Below are positions 13,980 through 56,289 of a DNA stretch of 64,000 nucleotides, piece after piece. Positions within the stretch are counted from its first letter, which is position 1. Every line of letters begins with the position of its first letter. This DNA comes from Candidatus Methylacidiphilum fumarolicum (GTDB lineage: Bacteria > Verrucomicrobiota > Verrucomicrobiia > Methylacidiphilales > Methylacidiphilaceae), in contig NZ_OX458932.1 of the NCBI RefSeq assembly GCF_949774925.1, positions 1,860,001 to 1,924,000 on the forward strand, written 5' to 3'. Below the pieces are notes generated by a model that did not search any database, was not told the DNA's origin, and saw only the letters and a program-made list of their open reading frames with translations. The translations under genes were made by a program, and so were the position numbers.

Positions 13980-14956
13980 TGTGTACCAACCTGGTTTTGT
14001 TGCCCATTTTCAAAGTAGCCACCAAGCAGGTAGAACACAGCCATTCGGATGGCTAAACCATTCTCTACCTGCTTTAGAATGGCTGAATTGGGCGAATCAG
14101 CCAGTTCGCTTTCCATTTCTACCCCTCTTTCCACCGGACCTGGATGCATAATGAGAACATCTTTTTTACACTTTTTCATTCTTTCTGTAGTCAAGCTATA
14201 AGAGGCAATGTATTCGCTTATGGAAGGGAAAAGATCTTTTCTTTGTCTTTCATGCTGAAGCCGGAGCAGAATGATGCAATCAGCAAAAGGCAAGGACTCA
14301 TCCAGATTGTAACTGATCTCTGCTCCAAAATCTTTGAAATAGCTAGGCAGGAGGGTGATAGGACCGACAAATTTCACGTTTGCCCCATACTTGGAAAGCG
14401 CCCAAAACGTCGAACGTGCTACTCGACTATGCAGAATATCCCCAACGATTAATACCTTAAGCCCACGAACGGTCCCAAAATGCTCTTCAATAGTCATCAA
14501 ATCAAGAAGCCCCTGCGTTGGATGTTCATGGGCACCATCCCCTCCATTAATGACCGAAATGTTAAGGAGTTTTGCCAGGAAGGCAGCAGAGCCTGCCGCT
14601 GGATGGCGAATGATGAGAAAATCGATCCCCAAGGCTTCGAGATTCTTAGCCGTATCCTTCAAGGATTCACCTTTTTGAATAGAACTCGTTTTGTAGTCAA
14701 TCGATAAAAAAGAAATGCCTAGTTTTTTAGCCGCAATTTCAAAGGAAACCCGTGTGCGGGTACTTGGTTCAACCATCAAGGCCAAGGCCGTATATCTTTT
14801 TAAAAAAGGAAGAGGAAGGTTTTCCTTGAGAATTGTCTTAAACTCTTTGGCCGCAAGCAAAATGGCCTCGATTTCAGAAAAATCTAGTGCCTCTAAAGAA
14901 ACTAAATCTTTTCTTTTCCACTTTCTTTTTATTGCATCAAGTTTTAAGTTTTGCAT
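13976..14956 (-). CDS. pyrB: Aspartate carbamoyltransferase catalytic subunit
   Basis: PyrB condenses carbamoyl phosphate with aspartate. I chose the ATG at 14956 (MQNLKLDAIK), giving 326 residues, the family's normal length; a longer frame reaching 15124 would run into the divergent leuD gene and adds 56 unfamily-like residues. Key motifs are MVEPSTRTRVSFE (carbamoyl phosphate binding), HPTQGLLDL and GDILHSRVARS, and the late MHPGPVERGVE. It is first in the leftward pyrB-pyrC-carA-trpD run. No pyrI regulatory chain is present. Confidence 0.96.
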   Translation of the reverse strand: MQNLKLDAIKRKWKRKDLVSLEALDFSEIEAILLAAKEFKTILKENLPLPFLKRYTALALMVEPSTRTRVSFEIAAKKLGISFLSIDYKTSSIQKGESLKDTAKNLEALGIDFLIIRHPAAGSAAFLAKLLNISVINGGDGAHEHPTQGLLDLMTIEEHFGTVRGLKVLIVGDILHSRVARSTFWALSKYGANVKFVGPITLLPSYFKDFGAEISYNLDESLPFADCIILLRLQHERQRKDLFPSISEYIASYSLTTERMKKCKKDVLIMHPGPVERGVEMESELADSPNSAILKQVENGLAIRMAVFYLLGGYFENGQQNQVGTQ

Positions 14957-14995
14957 TGATCTAGAGAAAAATATAGAAAGAAGAAAAAGAAGAAA

Positions 14996-15544
14996 ATGAC
15001 AAAAAGAATTTTTGGTAAAGCTTACGTTGTGGGGGATAATATCGATACCGATCAAATTATTCCAGCACAATATCTTATGTATGTTCCAACGGTTCCTGAA
15101 GAACTCGAAAAATTGGGCAGTCATGCGCTTTGCGGATTGCCTGAATCTCTCTATCCCCTTCGGTTTGTTGAAGCAGGTAAAACCAAGACGGAATATCCCA
15201 TTATCATTGCAGGAAAAAACTTTGGCTGTGGTTCATCTCGAGAGCATGCCCCCATTGCTCTAGCTGCTGCTGGCTGTCGAGTGGTAATTGCCAAAAGCTA
15301 TGCAAGAATTTTTTTTCGCAACTGTATTGCTACAGGAGTTCTTTTTCCTTATGAGATCGGAGAGAGATTTCCAGAAAAAATAGAGATTGGCCAAGAATTA
15401 GTCGTTGACCTAGAAACGGAGACTCTGTTGGTGGCTGATCAAGTTTATCCCTTAAAGCCTCTTGGGGATGCCAAAGAGGTCATCGAAGCTGGTGGAATAT
15501 TTAACTATGCAAAAAAAACGGGAATGATCCCCGTTAGCTCTTAA
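14996..15544 (+). CDS. leuD: 3-isopropylmalate dehydratase small subunit
   Basis: A 182-residue aconitase-type swivel domain of leucine synthesis, partner of LeuC. It opens with VVGDNIDTDQIIPAQYL and holds the substrate-loop motif FGCGSSREHAP near residue 77, as in the shorter archaeal/HacB-like LeuD group. The start is preceded by a purine-rich stretch (AGAAGAAA). Only 39 bases separate it from pyrB, so both promoters must lie in or overlap a very short divergent interval. leuC is not in the window. Confidence 0.94.
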   Translation: MTKRIFGKAYVVGDNIDTDQIIPAQYLMYVPTVPEELEKLGSHALCGLPESLYPLRFVEAGKTKTEYPIIIAGKNFGCGSSREHAPIALAAAGCRVVIAKSYARIFFRNCIATGVLFPYEIGERFPEKIEIGQELVVDLETETLLVADQVYPLKPLGDAKEVIEAGGIFNYAKKTGMIPVSS

Positions 15545-15577
15545 TTTTCTATTGCGTCTCATTTTAACTTTTCCTTT

Positions 15578-16690
15578 ATGAAAACTTATCGCGTCGCTGT
15601 TCTTGCTGGAGATGGTATAGGTCCGGAATTGGTGCGAGTCACTATTCCAATTCTACGATTAGCTTCCTATCTGTACGGCTTTGAACTCATTTTTGAAGAA
15701 GCCTTAGTGGGAGGAACGGCTATAGAAGCAACAGGTAAAGCCCTGCCTCCAGAAACCCTGGAAATCTGCAAGCGGGCACAAGCCATTTTTTTTGGTGCAG
15801 TAGGAGGAAAACAATGGGAAAGTCTGCCGCCAGAAAAACAACCTGAGAGGGCTGCCTTGCTTCCCCTACGAAAAACTTTTTCGCTTTTTGCCAACCTTAG
15901 GCCAATTACCTGTTATCCAGAAATCATCGACGCTTCCCCCCTTAAACCCGAAATAGCTTCTGGGGTAGACCTGCTTATCGTAAGGGAACTGACAGGGGGC
16001 ATTTACTTTGGTCAGCCCAAAGGAAGGGTTTTAACTGAGCAAGGGGAAAGAGCGATCGACACGCTTCTTTATGATACCTCTGAAATTGAAAGAGTGGCCA
16101 CAGTCGCCTTCGAATTAGCCTTGCGGAGAAAAAAGAGTTTAACCCTTATTGACAAAGCCAATGTTCTGGAATCGAGTTTATTATGGAGGAAGACCGTCAA
16201 GGAAATTGCCAATAACTATCCTGAGGTCGACCTTAAGTTTATGTACGTAGACAACGCGGCCATGCAGCTTGTATTAAAACCCACACAGTTCGATGTCCTT
16301 CTTTGCGAAAATCTTTTTGGAGACATCCTCAGTGATGAGGCTGCTGGCATTGCTGGAAGCCTTGGGCTTTTAGCCAGTGCTTCCATTGGCGCTAGTAAAT
16401 TTGGCTTATACGAGCCTGCCGGAGGATCCGCTCCTGACATTGCTGGCAAAGGAATAGCTAATCCTATTTCACAGATATTATCCGGAGCGTTGATGTTCGA
16501 ATATAGTTTTCAGGAAGAAGAAGCTGCCCAGGCTATAAAAGATGCTGTAAGAGATGTTCTAAAAGAGGGATATCGAACAATGGACATTGCTAAGGGCTCT
16601 GCTACGTATTGTACGACCGAAGAGTTCGCTGAAAAAGTAGCTCAGAAGATTGAAATAAATTTCAAGAAGAAAAAACAGGAAGGGAGCTGA
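15578..16690 (+). CDS. leuB: 3-isopropylmalate dehydrogenase
   Basis: A 370-residue LeuB performing the NAD-dependent oxidative decarboxylation in leucine synthesis. It starts VAVLAGDGIGPELV; the substrate-binding arginines lie in LRKTFSLFANLRP and IVRELTGGIYFGQP, the metal-binding aspartates in ENLFGDILSDEAA, and the cofactor loop in EPAGGSAPDIAGKGIANP. It follows leuD by 33 bases in an evident operon. Confidence 0.97.
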   Translation: MKTYRVAVLAGDGIGPELVRVTIPILRLASYLYGFELIFEEALVGGTAIEATGKALPPETLEICKRAQAIFFGAVGGKQWESLPPEKQPERAALLPLRKTFSLFANLRPITCYPEIIDASPLKPEIASGVDLLIVRELTGGIYFGQPKGRVLTEQGERAIDTLLYDTSEIERVATVAFELALRRKKSLTLIDKANVLESSLLWRKTVKEIANNYPEVDLKFMYVDNAAMQLVLKPTQFDVLLCENLFGDILSDEAAGIAGSLGLLASASIGASKFGLYEPAGGSAPDIAGKGIANPISQILSGALMFEYSFQEEEAAQAIKDAVRDVLKEGYRTMDIAKGSATYCTTEEFAEKVAQKIEINFKKKKQEGS

Positions 16691-16757
16691 AGAAAAAAAT
16701 CTTAAAATGCAATTCTTTTTATAATAAAATATATTTAAATCAATTATTTATACGAAT

Positions 16758-17897
16758 ATGCCACTTTCAGCTTTTGATTCCACTGCCAGTATTGAAGATG
16801 AGATCAATCAAAAAATCCTTTCGGTCTCAGAAGATCGACTACAGGGATTTATTGCGGATCCTTTCAAGGAAATTGCCCATTTGACAAACCTACCCCTTGC
16901 CCTGGTCTTAGAAAGAATCCGTTTGATGTTTTCTGCTGGAACAATCCGGCGCATACGACTAACCCTTTTAGCCAATGATTTAGCGCCTGGAGCATTAGTG
17001 GCCTGGAAAATACCTGAGAACAGTCTACATGAAGCTTTTGACTTTTTGTTTCAAAAAGATCCATTCAGTGGCCATGTGGTGATTCGTTCCACAGATCCAG
17101 CAGCGGCAGGTGCTCGGTATCGACTATGGAGCACCTTAAAAGTCCCCCAAGGCTTTTCTATTCAAACCCATTGTGAACTACTAAAAAATCTTATTGGTGC
17201 TGAAGACTACAGAATCATGCCTGCCAAAGGAATCTTTACTTTAGGAGTGGGACATATCCGCCGAAAAACGATTCTTCCCGGAACAAAATCTCCAAAGGCA
17301 GCCGTCATGCATCCGGTTGCCATAAAAACGCTTAGTGAAAAACAGTGGCTTGTGCTGAAATCCTTGAAAGAAGAATTGACTTTGGAAGAAATCGACGAGG
17401 GATTATGGGAAAAAAGAGCAAGCAAAATAGGGATGAGTAGCCAGGCATTTTTCTCAATAGCCAAAGAACTTGAACAAATTGGGATTTTAGGACGGTTTTC
17501 TACCTTTTTGGAACATGTTAAACCCTTGTATGACGGAAGAAAAGTGACTAAATTTAACGCCCTTTTCCACTGGGCCGTTCCTCAAGGCATGGAAAGAGAA
17601 GCGGGTGGTCAAATCGGAAGATTTGAAATTCTTACTCATTGCTATTGGAGGGAAGCAGGAAGTGAATTTAAAAACGTCAATATCATGGCTGTAGCCCATG
17701 GAAAGGATAAGGGATTGTTGGAATCTCATAAGAAAGCGATCGACGAACATTTGGAGTCGGTCGGTATCCCAGTTTCCTATACGAACATTTTTTGGGGAGG
17801 AAGAAGCGAAATTAAACCTTCAGAAATTTTCCCCGAGGCTTATAAAGAATGGCTCCAAAAGATGGATTTAGATTCAAGCGTAATATCAAATTCCTGA
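16758..17897 (+). CDS. Two-module AsnC/AhbA-AhbB-like protein (siroheme decarboxylase superfamily?)
   Basis: The 379-residue protein appears to hold two copies of a winged-helix plus Lrp/AsnC-type ligand domain. The first HTH is near residues 38-65 (LPLALVLERIRLMFSAGTIRRIR) split by a turn; the second half has LTLEEIDEG and KFNALFHWAVP followed by ILTHCYWRE and IMAVAHGKD. That H/C-Y pattern resembles AhbA and AhbB, the paired siroheme decarboxylase subunits, rather than a DNA-binding Lrp. A fused AhbA-AhbB is one reading; a two-module regulator is another. No other siroheme gene is in the window. It overlaps the sulP start by 49 bases. Confidence 0.5.
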   Translation: MPLSAFDSTASIEDEINQKILSVSEDRLQGFIADPFKEIAHLTNLPLALVLERIRLMFSAGTIRRIRLTLLANDLAPGALVAWKIPENSLHEAFDFLFQKDPFSGHVVIRSTDPAAAGARYRLWSTLKVPQGFSIQTHCELLKNLIGAEDYRIMPAKGIFTLGVGHIRRKTILPGTKSPKAAVMHPVAIKTLSEKQWLVLKSLKEELTLEEIDEGLWEKRASKIGMSSQAFFSIAKELEQIGILGRFSTFLEHVKPLYDGRKVTKFNALFHWAVPQGMEREAGGQIGRFEILTHCYWREAGSEFKNVNIMAVAHGKDKGLLESHKKAIDEHLESVGIPVSYTNIFWGGRSEIKPSEIFPEAYKEWLQKMDLDSSVISNS

Positions 17898-19696
17898 TTA
17901 GGCGTTCTGTTCCATCCTTTAATCGATGGAAGGGACGGTTTATTGAGCAAATTCAGGATTTGCATTTTGATCTTGGTCCGTTCAGAGACACAATCAAAAA
18001 CTATTCGAAAGAAAAGTTTCAAATCGATTTCAAAGCGGGCATCAATGTGGCCCTCTTATCCATCCCACAGGGAATGGCTTATGCTCTCATTGCTGGATTG
18101 CCTGTCCAGTATGGACTTTATGCTTGCGCTATCTCTTCTTTGCTTGGCCCCCTTTTTCAAAGCTCCCGCTATGTCGTACTTGGTCCAACCAATGCCACCT
18201 CAGTCCTTTTGTTTAGTACCTATTTAAACATCCAAAAACAAGTAGACAAGCTCTCCACCCTACCCTTTGTATTACTTTTTGTGGGGATCATTTTGATCCT
18301 CGTCAGCCTTTTTAGAATGGCTGGCCTCACTCAATATGTATCCAGAACGGTTATAGTTGGGTATATTACTGGGGCTTCTTTCCTTATTATTGCGGGACAG
18401 CTGCACCGAGTTATGGGGTTTGAGCTTTCGGAAGCCTATACGTTTTTCGATATTGTTGTGCAAACATTGAACCGACTGCATCTCATCCAGTGGCCATCTG
18501 TAGCTATCGGTATCTGCTCGCTTGGCTGTTGGTGGTGGCTTAAAAAGCGGTTTCCAAAACTCCCAGCTATTGCCCTTAGCCTTGTTTTGATGAGTTTTCT
18601 AGGCACCTTGATGCATTCTTTGCATCTACCTATTGAATTCCTAAAACCTATTCCCATGGCCACCTGGCCAATTACGCTCCCAACGATGAATTTTCACTGG
18701 TTTTCAACCCTAGCAAGCATGTCTTTTGCTCTCGCTTTTTTTGCTGCCGTAGAAGGCACAGGCATTGCCAGATCGCTTGCTAATAGGTCCGGAGAACCTT
18801 TAGAACTAAACCGCGATCTGTTCGCTCAGGGAATTGCTAACATTGGATGCAGCTTCTTTAGTGGTATGCCTGTATCAGGCTCCTTAACACGATCCGCATT
18901 AAACTGGGCAAGCAAACCGGCCACCCAGCTTGCCAATTTATGGAGCGGTATACTCATGTCCATAGCTCTGCTATTCGGAGGTCCTCTTCTAGGCTATATT
19001 CCAATTCCAGCTCTTTCGGCTCTCGTTATTAGCGCTGGATTATCCCTCATTAATCCGAATGAAATCAAAATCGCGCTTACAGCTACTCGATTCGATTTTA
19101 CGGTCTTTGTTGTCACCTTCATCGGCGCCCTCCTCACCCCACTGGATTTTGCCATCGGCCTTGGCATCGGAGCTTCCATTCTGTTTTTTCTCAAACAAGC
19201 TGGAGAGCCCTTTTTTGTCGAGTACACTTTCGATACCGAACAGGGAGATCTAAGAGAAAAGATAAAAGGGGAACCGACCGTTCATCCAGATATTTCTATC
19301 ATCCATATCGAAGGGGAACTCTTTTTTGGAGTTTCAGAACTTTTTAGAACACAGATCAACAAGATCCTTGCCCTGAATCCAAAAATTCGAGTGGTCATTT
19401 TAAGAATGCGTAATGCCCATCACCTGGATGCTACCAATGCAATGGCTTTAGAAGAATTGCATCATTGGCTCACCGAACAGGGGAAGTTTCTACTGATCAG
19501 TGGGGTCATCCGTCCCGTTTTCCGCGTCTTGAGGAACTCTGGGGTCTTAGATCGTATCGGTAGAAAAAATGTATTTCCACTAATTCCTACACAACCCAAT
19601 CTTTCGACTCGTCAGGCACTCATAAGGGCTCAGGAACTCTTAGGGAAAAAGGAGAGTGAAGTCAAAATTTTCTTCGAAAAACTCCCAAAAAAATGA
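17849..19696 (+). CDS. SulP-family anion (sulfate) permease with STAS domain
   Basis: A 615-residue membrane transporter. It has the SulP signature LLSIPQGMAYALIAGLPVQY near residue 72, followed by about ten hydrophobic segments to residue 450, and a C-terminal STAS domain (about 470-590) starting ISIIHIEGELFFG. SulP proteins move sulfate, bicarbonate or other anions; the substrate cannot be read here. The ATG at 17849 lies inside the preceding gene and implies a 49-base overlap; no better downstream ATG precedes the first membrane segment, so coupling to the AhbA/B-like gene is likely. Confidence 0.88.
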   Translation: MAPKDGFRFKRNIKFLIRRSVPSFNRWKGRFIEQIQDLHFDLGPFRDTIKNYSKEKFQIDFKAGINVALLSIPQGMAYALIAGLPVQYGLYACAISSLLGPLFQSSRYVVLGPTNATSVLLFSTYLNIQKQVDKLSTLPFVLLFVGIILILVSLFRMAGLTQYVSRTVIVGYITGASFLIIAGQLHRVMGFELSEAYTFFDIVVQTLNRLHLIQWPSVAIGICSLGCWWWLKKRFPKLPAIALSLVLMSFLGTLMHSLHLPIEFLKPIPMATWPITLPTMNFHWFSTLASMSFALAFFAAVEGTGIARSLANRSGEPLELNRDLFAQGIANIGCSFFSGMPVSGSLTRSALNWASKPATQLANLWSGILMSIALLFGGPLLGYIPIPALSALVISAGLSLINPNEIKIALTATRFDFTVFVVTFIGALLTPLDFAIGLGIGASILFFLKQAGEPFFVEYTFDTEQGDLREKIKGEPTVHPDISIIHIEGELFFGVSELFRTQINKILALNPKIRVVILRMRNAHHLDATNAMALEELHHWLTEQGKFLLISGVIRPVFRVLRNSGVLDRIGRKNVFPLIPTQPNLSTRQALIRAQELLGKKESEVKIFFEKLPKK

Positions 19697-52049: not shown

Positions 52050-55043
52050 TTATCTAACGGCTTGTAAAACAACTTTTTTCCATTCTTTATCGGTAATAAA
52101 AGCAGATTGCGCTCTTAAAAATCTGCCGTGTTGAAAATTACAAAGCAGATCTCCTTTCCCCCTGAGCTGCTCCGCTCCGCCTCTATCAAGGATCAATAAA
52201 GACTCCGTATCATCAGTTACTCTAAAAGAGATTTTTCCAGGCAGACATTGTTTGATTAGTCCTGAAACGATTTCTTTCCTTGGACTTTGAGTAGAAATGA
52301 TAAGATGAATTCCAGCACTTCTTCCCTTCTGAGCAATTCGCTGAATATAACTTTCAAACTCTCTTCTCCTATTGCCTCTTAGTCCAGAGATCATATCTGC
52401 ATACTCATCAATCACAATAATCCAATATGGAATGTCTCCTTTCCCTGTCTTATACAGGCTATTAAGGTCATTAAGCATTTCTTTATTTAATCTTTCATTC
52501 CGAGAATTCATTTCCTCAACTGCCTTCTTCAAAAAATCCTCAGCTTCCTTATGGCTCTTTATGCTTTCTAGGGGAAAAAAATCAGTCCCTTTAAAATCAA
52601 TCAAAAAGACTCTAGCTTTTTTTGGAAATTTATAAAGGATGGCTCCAATAAGTGATTTCAAAAATTGACTCTTGCCACTCCCTGTGGTTCCAGCTACTAA
52701 TAGATGAGCAAAATTGCTATCCATAAAATCACCGATAACCCATTCGGACTGTTCTAAGTCAATCGTTTTACCAATTGGAAATGAAAGATTTCCTTTAAGA
52801 TGTCTTAATGCTTTCTTCCAAGGAACTACGCAATCTATTTGAGGGATGGCTACATCGATCTTTACATAATTTCTATACGCATCGATAAAGGGAGGAACAT
52901 CTAGTCCAAGATGTAACTGGATGTCTTTCTTTCTAGCCACGATATTCGTTATTCTTACCCTTACATCTTTTTCAACAAGAAACCGAACAAATTGCGGAGC
53001 AATTTTATAATCACGAACGTTAGCATCGATGTTATTCTTAGAGAAAAATTCATTCAACTTCTCTCTGTAAATTCTATATGGATCATTCTCGTTGCTAGAG
53101 TCTGGTTGTGTTACAGTAATCTCTGATCCAGTAGGAGCAGTAGAAGTAATAGGAAGAGGGGGGAGTTGAGGTAATAGTGAAATTAATGGATCAATCCATG
53201 AAGCAAGCTTCTTTGAGGCAAATTCTTCTATTTTTTCTTTCGAATAGTTGATATCTCTAGAAATAGCATTGCGATAAAGTATAGCCAGAGCATAGAAATC
53301 AGCCGTTTTTTCCTTATCAAGAGCTTCTATGCGTAATAAACCAGAGTTTTTGGCTTGATCGATTGTTTCTTTTTCTTTAGTCTCCTTCCAATTTTTCCCA
53401 GGAATTGTCTTTAGTTCATGGGATCTAGGAAATATACCTAAAAACCGTCTGCTTTTGGCTTGAAAAGAAGCAGATAGTTCAAGTGTCTTCTTAGCGATTG
53501 CGCCCCAACGTTTCCAATTATCACTTTTTTCACAGCCAAAATAAACTGTAGTCTGATCCCCATCATGTTCCCAACAAAGCGAATAGTAATCGTGTTTTAT
53601 CTGCTGGATGGATTCTTTTTTTCCAATAAGTGCTACCTGAATTGCTTCGAGAAAGAGATCAGGTTGAAATAGAACCTGGCCAGAAAGAGTCTTTTTCTTT
53701 TCTTCATTAAAAATCTTTTCTAATTCCTCGTCTCCTTCTCTTAATTCATTTGTTTCTTCTATTTGCTCAAATTCTCTCTCAGCCCATTGAAGAAACTTTC
53801 TAATTCCTACTTTTGATTGGGTAGAAAAAAACGAGGGCAATTTTTCAAGAAGCTTTCTAACTTTGCTTTCTTCAATAGGATATCTCTTGATCCTTTGCTC
53901 GATAAGTTCTCTGGCTTGTTCTATATTCAAACCTTCTAACTCTAACTGTTTTTCATAGGCAATCCTTTCTAGATCTGCTTTTTGGATATAATTTCTATTC
54001 TGCTCCCAAGCATGGAAATTTGTTGTAAGAATAATTAGATGATTCTTGCATTCATTCACAAGAGAACCAATCACAGATCCAAACTTCTGACATAAGGACT
54101 TATCCTCTCCGTAACGCTCAGTTTGATCAAAACAGAAAACAAAAGGACGCGCAAAAGAGGCTAGGTTGCAAAATTGATAAACTCGCTTCCGGCACAAATC
54201 ATTTCGAGTGTCAATAGGCAAATCCATAGGTTCATTGTAGTTAATTGGAAGACCAATATTTCTTACATCTTCTTCCTCTAAAGTGGCTCCTCTTAGCCAT
54301 TCTATACACGTCTCCCTGTGGCGCAGATCAGGGTTGGCGGAATACCAGAAAAAAATCCAAAACAGAGGGATAAGGTCACGTAGCTCTCCAATATTGATAC
54401 CTCTTCTGTATAAAGCATTTTCGCAACATTGAGCTAAAGAATCCCAATAAGATGCTTGCATCCATTGAATCCATTTTTCGGAAGGATTTGAAAAATCAGC
54501 CTTTTGATTAGGTGCCTTTCTTAAGGCTTCTACAACATCCAACTCATTGACAACTCCTCTTACAAGCCCCTGATGAATAAGCTCCTGTGGTTCAATCAAT
54601 TTAGAAGTTATAAGATCCGCCAAAAGATTGCCGATAATGCGACTAGTATAAATCTCAAACTGAGTATAGGATCGGTTATTTCTCCTATCTATATCTATAA
54701 ATTCTTCAGGCTGAGTAAGCTCGGTAAGAATCCTATCGAAGATATTTATCCAAAACCGACTAGAATCAATAAACGCATAAAAATAAATGAGCGTTGCTTT
54801 GCCTTTAAGCTCTTGAAATAATCTTCCAATAAGATAGGTTTTACCATAACCCGCTTCGGGTGAAGATATCAGATAGGCTTTGGGAAGATCGTTTTTTTGA
54901 CATAGCTCTCCAAATTTTTTGAGGAGGAATTTTAGAGGTCTTTCATTTAATCCTCTAAGAGGAGAATCAGGAAGAACCCTTGGATCTGTAACAATTTGTA
55001 CTTCAAAAGGTGGTGGCATCTTCTCAATTATAAGGTTGCTCAA
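52050..55043 (-). CDS. Double-ATPase protein with C-terminal FtsK/SpoIIIE motor
   Basis: A 997-residue soluble protein with two P-loop modules. The first has a Walker A SSPEAGYGKTYLIGRLF (residues 60-76) and a possible Walker B FVFCFDQTE near residue 310, giving an AAA+/STAND-like ATPase. Residues about 560-760 are a less clear linker. The second is an FtsK/SpoIIIE motor: Walker A VAGTTGSGKSQF (about 783-794), Walker B IIVIDEYADM (about 875-884), and IISTQSPRK. Unlike FtsK it has no N-terminal membrane segments. It overlaps the upstream wHTH gene by 20 bases. The role is unknown; a DNA-translocating defence or partition system is an inference. Confidence 0.8.
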   Translation of the reverse strand: MSNLIIEKMPPPFEVQIVTDPRVLPDSPLRGLNERPLKFLLKKFGELCQKNDLPKAYLISSPEAGYGKTYLIGRLFQELKGKATLIYFYAFIDSSRFWINIFDRILTELTQPEEFIDIDRRNNRSYTQFEIYTSRIIGNLLADLITSKLIEPQELIHQGLVRGVVNELDVVEALRKAPNQKADFSNPSEKWIQWMQASYWDSLAQCCENALYRRGINIGELRDLIPLFWIFFWYSANPDLRHRETCIEWLRGATLEEEDVRNIGLPINYNEPMDLPIDTRNDLCRKRVYQFCNLASFARPFVFCFDQTERYGEDKSLCQKFGSVIGSLVNECKNHLIILTTNFHAWEQNRNYIQKADLERIAYEKQLELEGLNIEQARELIEQRIKRYPIEESKVRKLLEKLPSFFSTQSKVGIRKFLQWAEREFEQIEETNELREGDEELEKIFNEEKKKTLSGQVLFQPDLFLEAIQVALIGKKESIQQIKHDYYSLCWEHDGDQTTVYFGCEKSDNWKRWGAIAKKTLELSASFQAKSRRFLGIFPRSHELKTIPGKNWKETKEKETIDQAKNSGLLRIEALDKEKTADFYALAILYRNAISRDINYSKEKIEEFASKKLASWIDPLISLLPQLPPLPITSTAPTGSEITVTQPDSSNENDPYRIYREKLNEFFSKNNIDANVRDYKIAPQFVRFLVEKDVRVRITNIVARKKDIQLHLGLDVPPFIDAYRNYVKIDVAIPQIDCVVPWKKALRHLKGNLSFPIGKTIDLEQSEWVIGDFMDSNFAHLLVAGTTGSGKSQFLKSLIGAILYKFPKKARVFLIDFKGTDFFPLESIKSHKEAEDFLKKAVEEMNSRNERLNKEMLNDLNSLYKTGKGDIPYWIIVIDEYADMISGLRGNRRREFESYIQRIAQKGRSAGIHLIISTQSPRKEIVSGLIKQCLPGKISFRVTDDTESLLILDRGGAEQLRGKGDLLCNFQHGRFLRAQSAFITDKEWKKVVLQAVR

Positions 55044-55776
55044 GCTTTACTCGTAAAAATTTATTGCCTTCATACTGCATAACTGCCTGTTTTTCTATAT
55101 CAGAAGCCAAAGCCCAGTCTCCTTCAAAAAGATGGGCTAAGCCCTTTCTACTCTGCTCAAGAAGCCATTCGTGAAGGCTCTTTAGATCAACACCAGATTT
55201 CTTCTGCAAAGAAGCAATTGCTACATGAGAGATGTTATTAAACTTATTTTCCTTAAGGAGATCCTCATAAGCTTTATAAATCTTTTTTGGATTAATTACA
55301 GAAGTGCCTTTTTTTACTTCTTTACAAAAAAGAGCCATAGGCAAATAGTACCTTGTTTTGCCTATCCTTAAGGGAATCAGAAGACTATCGATGATTAAGC
55401 AGTCTAAAGCCTCTTGAAAAAGAGTTTTAGGACAATTTAGGCATTTCTTGTACAATTGGGTTGCAGAAATAGGCTTGTATTCTATAGGCTTTTCCTCAGC
55501 AGGAAAAAGGGATTCTAAAGTTTTTTCAATTTTACCAGCGATCTTTTCCACACTCGGCGCATAGTCAAACAAATAATATCTTTCAGAAAGTTTGATGACC
55601 TTATTTTCTTGGATCAGTTGGTTAAAGTGTTTATTACTCTCCTCTGAACTATGATTTTTAGGAAGAAGCCTACTTTTAGGTAGGCCCTTTTCTTTTGCTT
55701 TTTCAAGAAGTTTGAGCAATCGTTCTCTTATATCAAAAGAAGCCTTTTTCTTCTTTTCTTTTGAAGTTTTACCCAT
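55024..55776 (-). CDS. Winged-helix-like partner of the double-ATPase protein
   Basis: A 250-residue Lys-rich protein that appears to hold three winged-helix-like units, ending in strand pairs such as KVIKLSERYYLFDY (about residue 68), LLIPLRIGKTRYYLP (about residue 142) and GLAHLFEGDWALASD (about residue 220). I recognise no named family. It is first in a two-gene unit: its 3' end overlaps the start of the FtsK-like gene by 20 bases, so the two are very likely co-translated. DNA recognition or loading of the ATPase is a reasonable inference. Confidence 0.65.
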   Translation of the reverse strand: MGKTSKEKKKKASFDIRERLLKLLEKAKEKGLPKSRLLPKNHSSEESNKHFNQLIQENKVIKLSERYYLFDYAPSVEKIAGKIEKTLESLFPAEEKPIEYKPISATQLYKKCLNCPKTLFQEALDCLIIDSLLIPLRIGKTRYYLPMALFCKEVKKGTSVINPKKIYKAYEDLLKENKFNNISHVAIASLQKKSGVDLKSLHEWLLEQSRKGLAHLFEGDWALASDIEKQAVMQYEGNKFLRVKLEQPYN

Positions 55777-56289
55777 TTTTTCTAAGCCCTAAGCTCCATA
55801 TTTTGAATACTAAATTCCTTCAAAGTCGAGCATAATTTTTTATTTCCGAGTTTCTAACTCCACATTCCTGGTTAATCCAAAGGATTTAAAAGAGAAAAAA
55901 TATTCGTTGAATTTCTTTAAATCTTCTATCCTATTCTTTTTAGTTCTAAGATTTTTTTAAAAGATATTAAGTTTATAAGCTACCCATCCTAAATCCTATA
56001 CCATGCCTATGCAAATCGATTATCCTTAAATCTGGTATTTAAAGCTTAAGGTGCTTAGGAAACTTTAAAACTTCTCCTTGCTTTTCTATACTTCATCCCT
56101 CATACCTCGTAGAAAAGCCAAATTTGTGGTGCAAGAAGTGATCCCTCCATACTATCAATTGAATAAAGAGAAGTCCGATTGCACATGCTTTGAAAAGCAG
56201 AAAAAAGGCGAGCTACTTTTTGCTAAGTCATAAAACCGGCCTCTTTGCAAAGAATTTATTTTTGGATATACATTCAAAAAGGGAGATTC
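55777..56289. other. Divergent intergenic region
   Basis: A 513-base AT-rich interval between the leftward ATPase unit and the rightward amidase. No gene or clear repeat was recognised; both promoters should lie here. Confidence 0.5.

Follow-up and report, generated by a model that had tools for sequence, protein, structure and literature searches.

Could two adjacent genes, one for a triple winged-helix protein and one for a soluble FtsK-like motor, make up a defence or DNA-handling system on their own? The pair occupies positions 52050-55776 of the window, a stretch of 64,000 nucleotides from Candidatus Methylacidiphilum fumarolicum, and the initial annotation put it forward as a candidate for an undescribed system. 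The window copy is most likely a decaying, nuclease-deleted and fused variant of an anti-invader class that has already been predicted. Below, the window genome is labelled G000, and G001-G012 are other Methylacidiphilaceae genomes. Both open reading frames of the pair are real and lie on the minus strand, with the following features.

55024..55776, minus strand: triple winged-helix protein of 250 residues, first gene of the unit (open reading frame, AlphaFold, Foldseek, upstream homologues)
52050..55019, minus strand: fused AAA+/FtsK protein, 989 residues from the conserved ATG at 55019 (997 residues from the TTG at 55043)
53754..54956, minus strand: Orc/Cdc6- and TnsC-like AAA+ ATPase core (alignment invariants, AlphaFold model, Foldseek, motifs)
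53244..53681, minus strand: alpha-beta-beta-beta-alpha-beta-alpha-beta fold after the AAA+ core, a candidate inactive REase (secondary structure of the model, topology by eye)
53098..53116, minus strand: deletion junction at which the PD-(D/E)XK nuclease domain was removed (DNA comparison with G004)
52905..53090, minus strand: FtsK-alpha domain (Pfam)
52068..52811, minus strand: FtsK/SpoIIIE-type motor domain, without gamma domain and without membrane segment (Pfam, alignment, motifs)

The larger frame (52050-55043, minus strand) yields 997 residues if started at the TTG, and the 20-base overlap of the two genes reported in the initial annotation rests on this start. The start kept in relatives, which begins M-N-P-F, is the ATG at 55019, so that the stop of the winged-helix gene and the start of the AAA+/FtsK gene are 4 bases apart and do not overlap.

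The AlphaFold model of the 250-residue protein (pLDDT 90) bears out the three winged helices, each appearing as a helix-helix-helix-strand-strand unit, and its best Foldseek matches in the PDB carry winged helices in tandem; an RNA polymerase III subunit, SelB and ScpB are examples. No kinship to DndG, SspB or FokI was detected for this protein by PADLOC or Foldseek, and profiles of the winged-helix and AAA+ proteins gave no usable match among PDB sequences. Between the winged-helix gene and the amidase gene, G004 carries about 1.6 kb (L025:12776-14433, a methyltransferase-like and another ORF) that the window genome lacks at 55978-56020.

As for the large protein, its N-terminal ATPase had been called AAA+/STAND-like. 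The AAA+ assignment holds, and the resemblance is to Orc/Cdc6 or TnsC, with an alpha-beta-beta-beta-alpha-beta fold behind the core. Walker A (SPEAGYGKT at 54863), the DQxE Walker B (FVFCFDQTE at 54143) and the sensor-1 Asn (TTN at about 54032) are conserved; Foldseek relates the core to an ORC chain and to TnsC at probability 0.99-1.00 but with low global TM (<=0.38), and the Pfam matches from sequence only are weak. The fold that follows, residues 461-594 of the model, has an alpha-beta3-alpha-beta topology as read by eye and lacks the active-site residues of a nuclease. That part alone gave no direct fold match; it is a candidate inactive REase, whose placement agrees with that of the iREase in PMC10853773. 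The C-terminal FtsK/SpoIIIE motor, correctly recognized from the start, matches the FtsK_SpoIIIE family of Pfam at 6e-22, with Walker A GTTGSGKS at 52691 and Walker B IIVIDE at 52421. The FtsK_alpha match is weak in the window copy (E 2.7e-4, just short of the cut-off) and reaches 1.8e-6 in the relative L067. The protein has no membrane segment, the highest 19-residue hydropathy being 1.17.

A nuclease domain lost from the window copy

The view of the 997-residue product as a double-ATPase protein is right in that the Walker motifs of both P-loop ATPases are intact, but such an architecture is not native. The intact, full-length relatives in Methylacidiphilaceae have about 1182-1220 residues, with some 200 additional residues between the two ATPases, and this inter-ATPase domain is recognized as PDDEXK_1 of Pfam (1e-14 to 2e-17). 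Its RecB/Cas4-type PD-(D/E)XK signature is complete in 29 aligned sequences, where Glu, Asp, Asp-Tyr-Lys and Gln-x3-Tyr are invariant and FH is nearly invariant. Relative to G004, the window copy has lost the domain through an in-frame deletion of net about 633 bp (about 211 codons), and short patches of G004-like sequence flank the junction on both sides. The window protein is a nuclease-deleted derivative.

We also considered whether the nuclease gene had been relocated within the genome, and rejected this: the best match to a displaced copy in the window genome has an E value of 0.6, and the other two PDDEXK_1 proteins encoded there are long (935 and 1066 residues), AddAB-sized and common to the whole genus.

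The parent unit across bacteria

Based on an AAA+ profile scan of 84,980 species genomes, 44 loci were found in Verrucomicrobiota, Desulfobacterota, Nitrospirota, Nitrospinota, Pseudomonadota, Acidobacteriota and Planctomycetota. Outside Methylacidiphilaceae, in at least six phyla, the unit nearly always consists of three adjacent genes in the same direction, which encode a winged-helix protein (about 250 residues), an AAA+ protein (about 680 residues) and a nuclease-FtsK protein (about 600 residues), in this order; intact operons of this kind occur, for example, in the alphaproteobacterial genera Rhodoplanes (R. elegans, L054) and Bradyrhizobium (L069). Pairing is conserved across the phyla, with the winged-helix gene preceding the AAA+ gene in 45 of the 46 loci that have room for it. 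The motor is present in 36/42 loci, and 35 of the 36 motor-bearing units have the nuclease.

The AAA+ and nuclease-motor proteins are fused as one ORF in Methylacidiphilaceae, where the fused versions form one clade (support 96/96). Another clade (L031, L037 and L061; support 100/99) carries a HerA-type motor instead of FtsK. A further AAA+-FtsK fusion, L067:9944-13045, has a low-complexity linker in the place of the nuclease and belongs to a different clade, and therefore arose independently of the fusion in Methylacidiphilaceae. In two related Verrucomicrobiota (L039:12028-12780 and L043:12022-12774), the third gene encodes a nuclease-like domain only, whose catalytic motifs are broken, and the motor is missing. 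The HerA-flavoured unit of L031 (G033) is directly followed, at 14211-18928, by genes for a Cas3-like helicase-nuclease and for a protein of the Cas_GSU0053 (Csb1-type) family.

The proposal of a stand-alone accessory module is in line with this constant pairing, with the patchy presence and shifting sites of the unit, and with the lack of a recurring third partner among 116 neighbouring ORFs. As had been noted, no conjugation or cell-division gene lies near the window pair. A possible enrichment beside known defence genes, raised at the outset, did not emerge clearly: PADLOC, whose models are permissive, marked SoFic, two TIR-type genes, one SduA and others among the 116 nearest ORFs, and a GajB-like UvrD-type helicase and others among 116 random ORFs from relatives, a control that differs in taxa. 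It is reasonable to read the unit as an accessory, probably defensive module, and the role in defence is one that we infer.

Decay at the window's site and alternative readings

Within Verrucomicrobiota, the unit was found in 7/384 genomes, six of the seven in Methylacidiphilaceae; a solitary AAA+ paralogue of 649-697 residues was set aside from this count. The unit or its remains occur in nine of the 13 Methylacidiphilaceae genomes and are absent from G007-G010. In G000, G001 and G004 the site is between a cupin gene and an amidase gene, in G003 it is different again, and G006, G011 and G012 share another, where G007 and G008 hold other genes. Downstream of the intact unit of G002 (L023:4227-7333) come an FRG-domain gene and, after it, genes read by eye as Ku and an ATP-dependent DNA ligase (LigD).

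The solitary paralogue occurs in most Methylacidiphilaceae genomes searched, has no confident Pfam family, and is apparently conserved and unannotated; in the window genome it has 649 residues and lies near citrate synthase-like and UvrA-like genes (G000:C1:2074301-2075209; L032:10256-12202).

All three copies at the window's site are damaged: the nuclease is deleted in the window, the motor is frameshifted in G004, and G001 has many stops. Pairwise dN/dS between the window and G004 is 0.23 for the winged-helix gene, 0.35 for the AAA+ part and 0.24-0.38 for the FtsK part, that is, 2-4 times the values of three flanking genes (0.10-0.14). This pattern fits relaxed or recently lost constraint, but does not prove the window copy dead. 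Substitution counts polarised by lineage, with G002 as outgroup, cannot decide between a relic and a functional gene, since synonymous sites are near saturation.

For the intact relatives, a capture mechanism in three steps is likely. To judge from their folds, the triple winged-helix protein and the Orc/Cdc6-like AAA+ protein would bind and mark the target DNA; the FtsK motor would then be loaded and pump the marked DNA, as the family of the motor suggests; and the PD-(D/E)XK domain of RecB/Cas4 type, which is joined to the motor and has a complete catalytic signature, may cut the passing DNA. Because the nuclease domain alone is deleted, the window protein is expected to have kept DNA binding and pumping but not cutting. 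We consider it probable that the window pair is a degenerate copy of such a 'capture' anti-invader unit of the Orc/Cdc6-FtsK type. Since each of the two sister copies at this site is also broken, and in its own manner, a recent loss-of-function relic is the most likely description.

The nuclease-less fusion might instead be a working variant, one that catches invader DNA and pumps it but leaves it uncut. It could, for example, block replication, segregation or packaging, or pass the DNA on to nucleases of the host such as AddAB; AddAB-like PDDEXK_1 proteins are encoded in the window genome. The frame is open with the motifs of both ATPases intact, no stop is seen where neutral evolution of the whole branch would give about eight, and dN/dS between the window copy and G004 lies well under 1. 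The independent fusion L067, with a plain linker replacing the nuclease, also speaks for the variant. Against it, dN/dS is elevated over the flanking genes, both orthologous copies at the site are pseudogenes, and the nuclease is missing in only one of the 36 other motor-bearing units; with the deletion undated, an open frame is little proof of function. We regard a working variant as unlikely. A bolder form of the idea, in which AAA+-FtsK fusions without a nuclease are a stable working form that arose at least twice (in the window copy and in L067) and stop invaders by pumping or holding DNA uncut, strikes us as distinctly unlikely.

A module for handling the host chromosome or plasmids (segregation, repair or loading) rather than for defence seems quite improbable. 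FtsK-alpha does connect the motor with cellular FtsK, the AAA+ core is similar to ORC and TnsC, and the G002 unit is near Ku and LigD genes, but a canonical FtsK is encoded elsewhere in each Methylacidiphilaceae genome examined (G000:C1:704725 in the window genome), and the unit is rare in Verrucomicrobiota, missing from G007-G010, shifts its position and decays in several genomes. Given the separate canonical FtsK, the unit is not a housekeeping FtsK. That the unit belongs to a mobile or conjugative element whose own transfer the motor serves is highly improbable. Its position varies between genomes, and a truncated AAA+ piece is found beside IS6 transposases on the 285-kb plasmid pOB3b1 of Methylosinus trichosporium (L093:7055-7735), but among the 116 neighbours there is no recurring gene for a relaxase, an integrase or a mating pore, and the pair is not a remnant of a conjugative element; the scan of viral contigs and phage records gave no relative, and plasmids gave no complete copy, only this truncated remnant.

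Being probably a fading relic, the window copy is of limited interest in itself. The census describes a compact unit of three genes in which pairing is nearly obligate and the nuclease motifs are complete; two motors can replace each other in it, and versions with the nuclease deleted occur naturally. The intact operons of Rhodoplanes and Bradyrhizobium make the idea of capturing DNA with a pump and then cutting it directly testable, and the window copy, with its natural deletion, offers a nuclease-null control that already exists.

Comparison with known systems

The window protein shares FtsK-alpha and the motor domain with cellular FtsK/SpoIIIE, and differs in having neither membrane segments nor a gamma domain, and in the AAA+ part (and, in relatives, the nuclease) fused in front. 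The unit is thus no cellular FtsK, which has a membrane domain, a gamma winged helix and one conserved copy.

The C-terminal motor is related to SspH (PADLOC E values down to 1e-64 within the family, with only the last ~215 residues matching the best SspH model), and the combination of a winged-helix protein, an ATPase and a nuclease-motor also recalls the logic of DndFGH and SspFGH. However, PADLOC detected no SspF, SspG, DndF or DndG in the unit, the AAA+ part matching neither SspF nor DndF, and the SWI2/SNF2, TRD and DAM parts are absent. Without DndF/SspF, DndG/SspG and a long DndH/SspH, the unit is not a DndFGH or SspFGH system. In addition, none of the nine genomes carrying the unit or its remains has dndC, which argues against a dependence on phosphorothioate marks, and we rejected phosphorothioate-linked restriction as its mode. 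HerA-NurA and the antiphage HerA pairs similarly couple a hexameric DNA pump to a nuclease, and L031, L037 and L061 have a HerA-type motor; the nuclease of the unit is RecB-like, unlike NurA or DUF4297, and the AAA+ and winged-helix partners are obligate.

The closest counterpart is the class of 'Orc/CDC6-HerA/FtsK capture' anti-invader systems, predicted computationally (Rakesh, Aravind & Krishnan, NAR 2024; PMC10853773), so the unit does not belong to an undescribed system. That paper frames the class in the terms of the mechanism outlined above, proposes that invader DNA is intercepted during segregation, transfer or packaging, and describes two REase families, one motor version with FtsK-alpha and another that is a different HerA version, and, in some cases, a protein of 2-4 winged helices with kinship to DndG/SspB/FokI; no experimental test of the class was found in the literature searched. 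Measured against this description, the window copy has the Orc/CDC6 family AAA+ ATPase and the HerA/FtsK motor with FtsK-alpha, and differs in lacking the active REase, which was deleted here and is present in nearly all motor-bearing relatives. The fusion of the AAA+ and nuclease-motor proteins is a difference of Methylacidiphilaceae, and the nuclease of the unit is RecB/Cas4-like (PDDEXK_1). In common are the Orc/Cdc6-type AAA+ protein, an apparent REase-like fold after its core, the multi-winged-helix protein, the distribution of domains over one or several polypeptides and, in relatives, a PD-(D/E)XK nuclease predicted to be active and a HerA/FtsK motor in two flavours. Both the domain set and the domain order of the unit match the capture class as the paper describes it.
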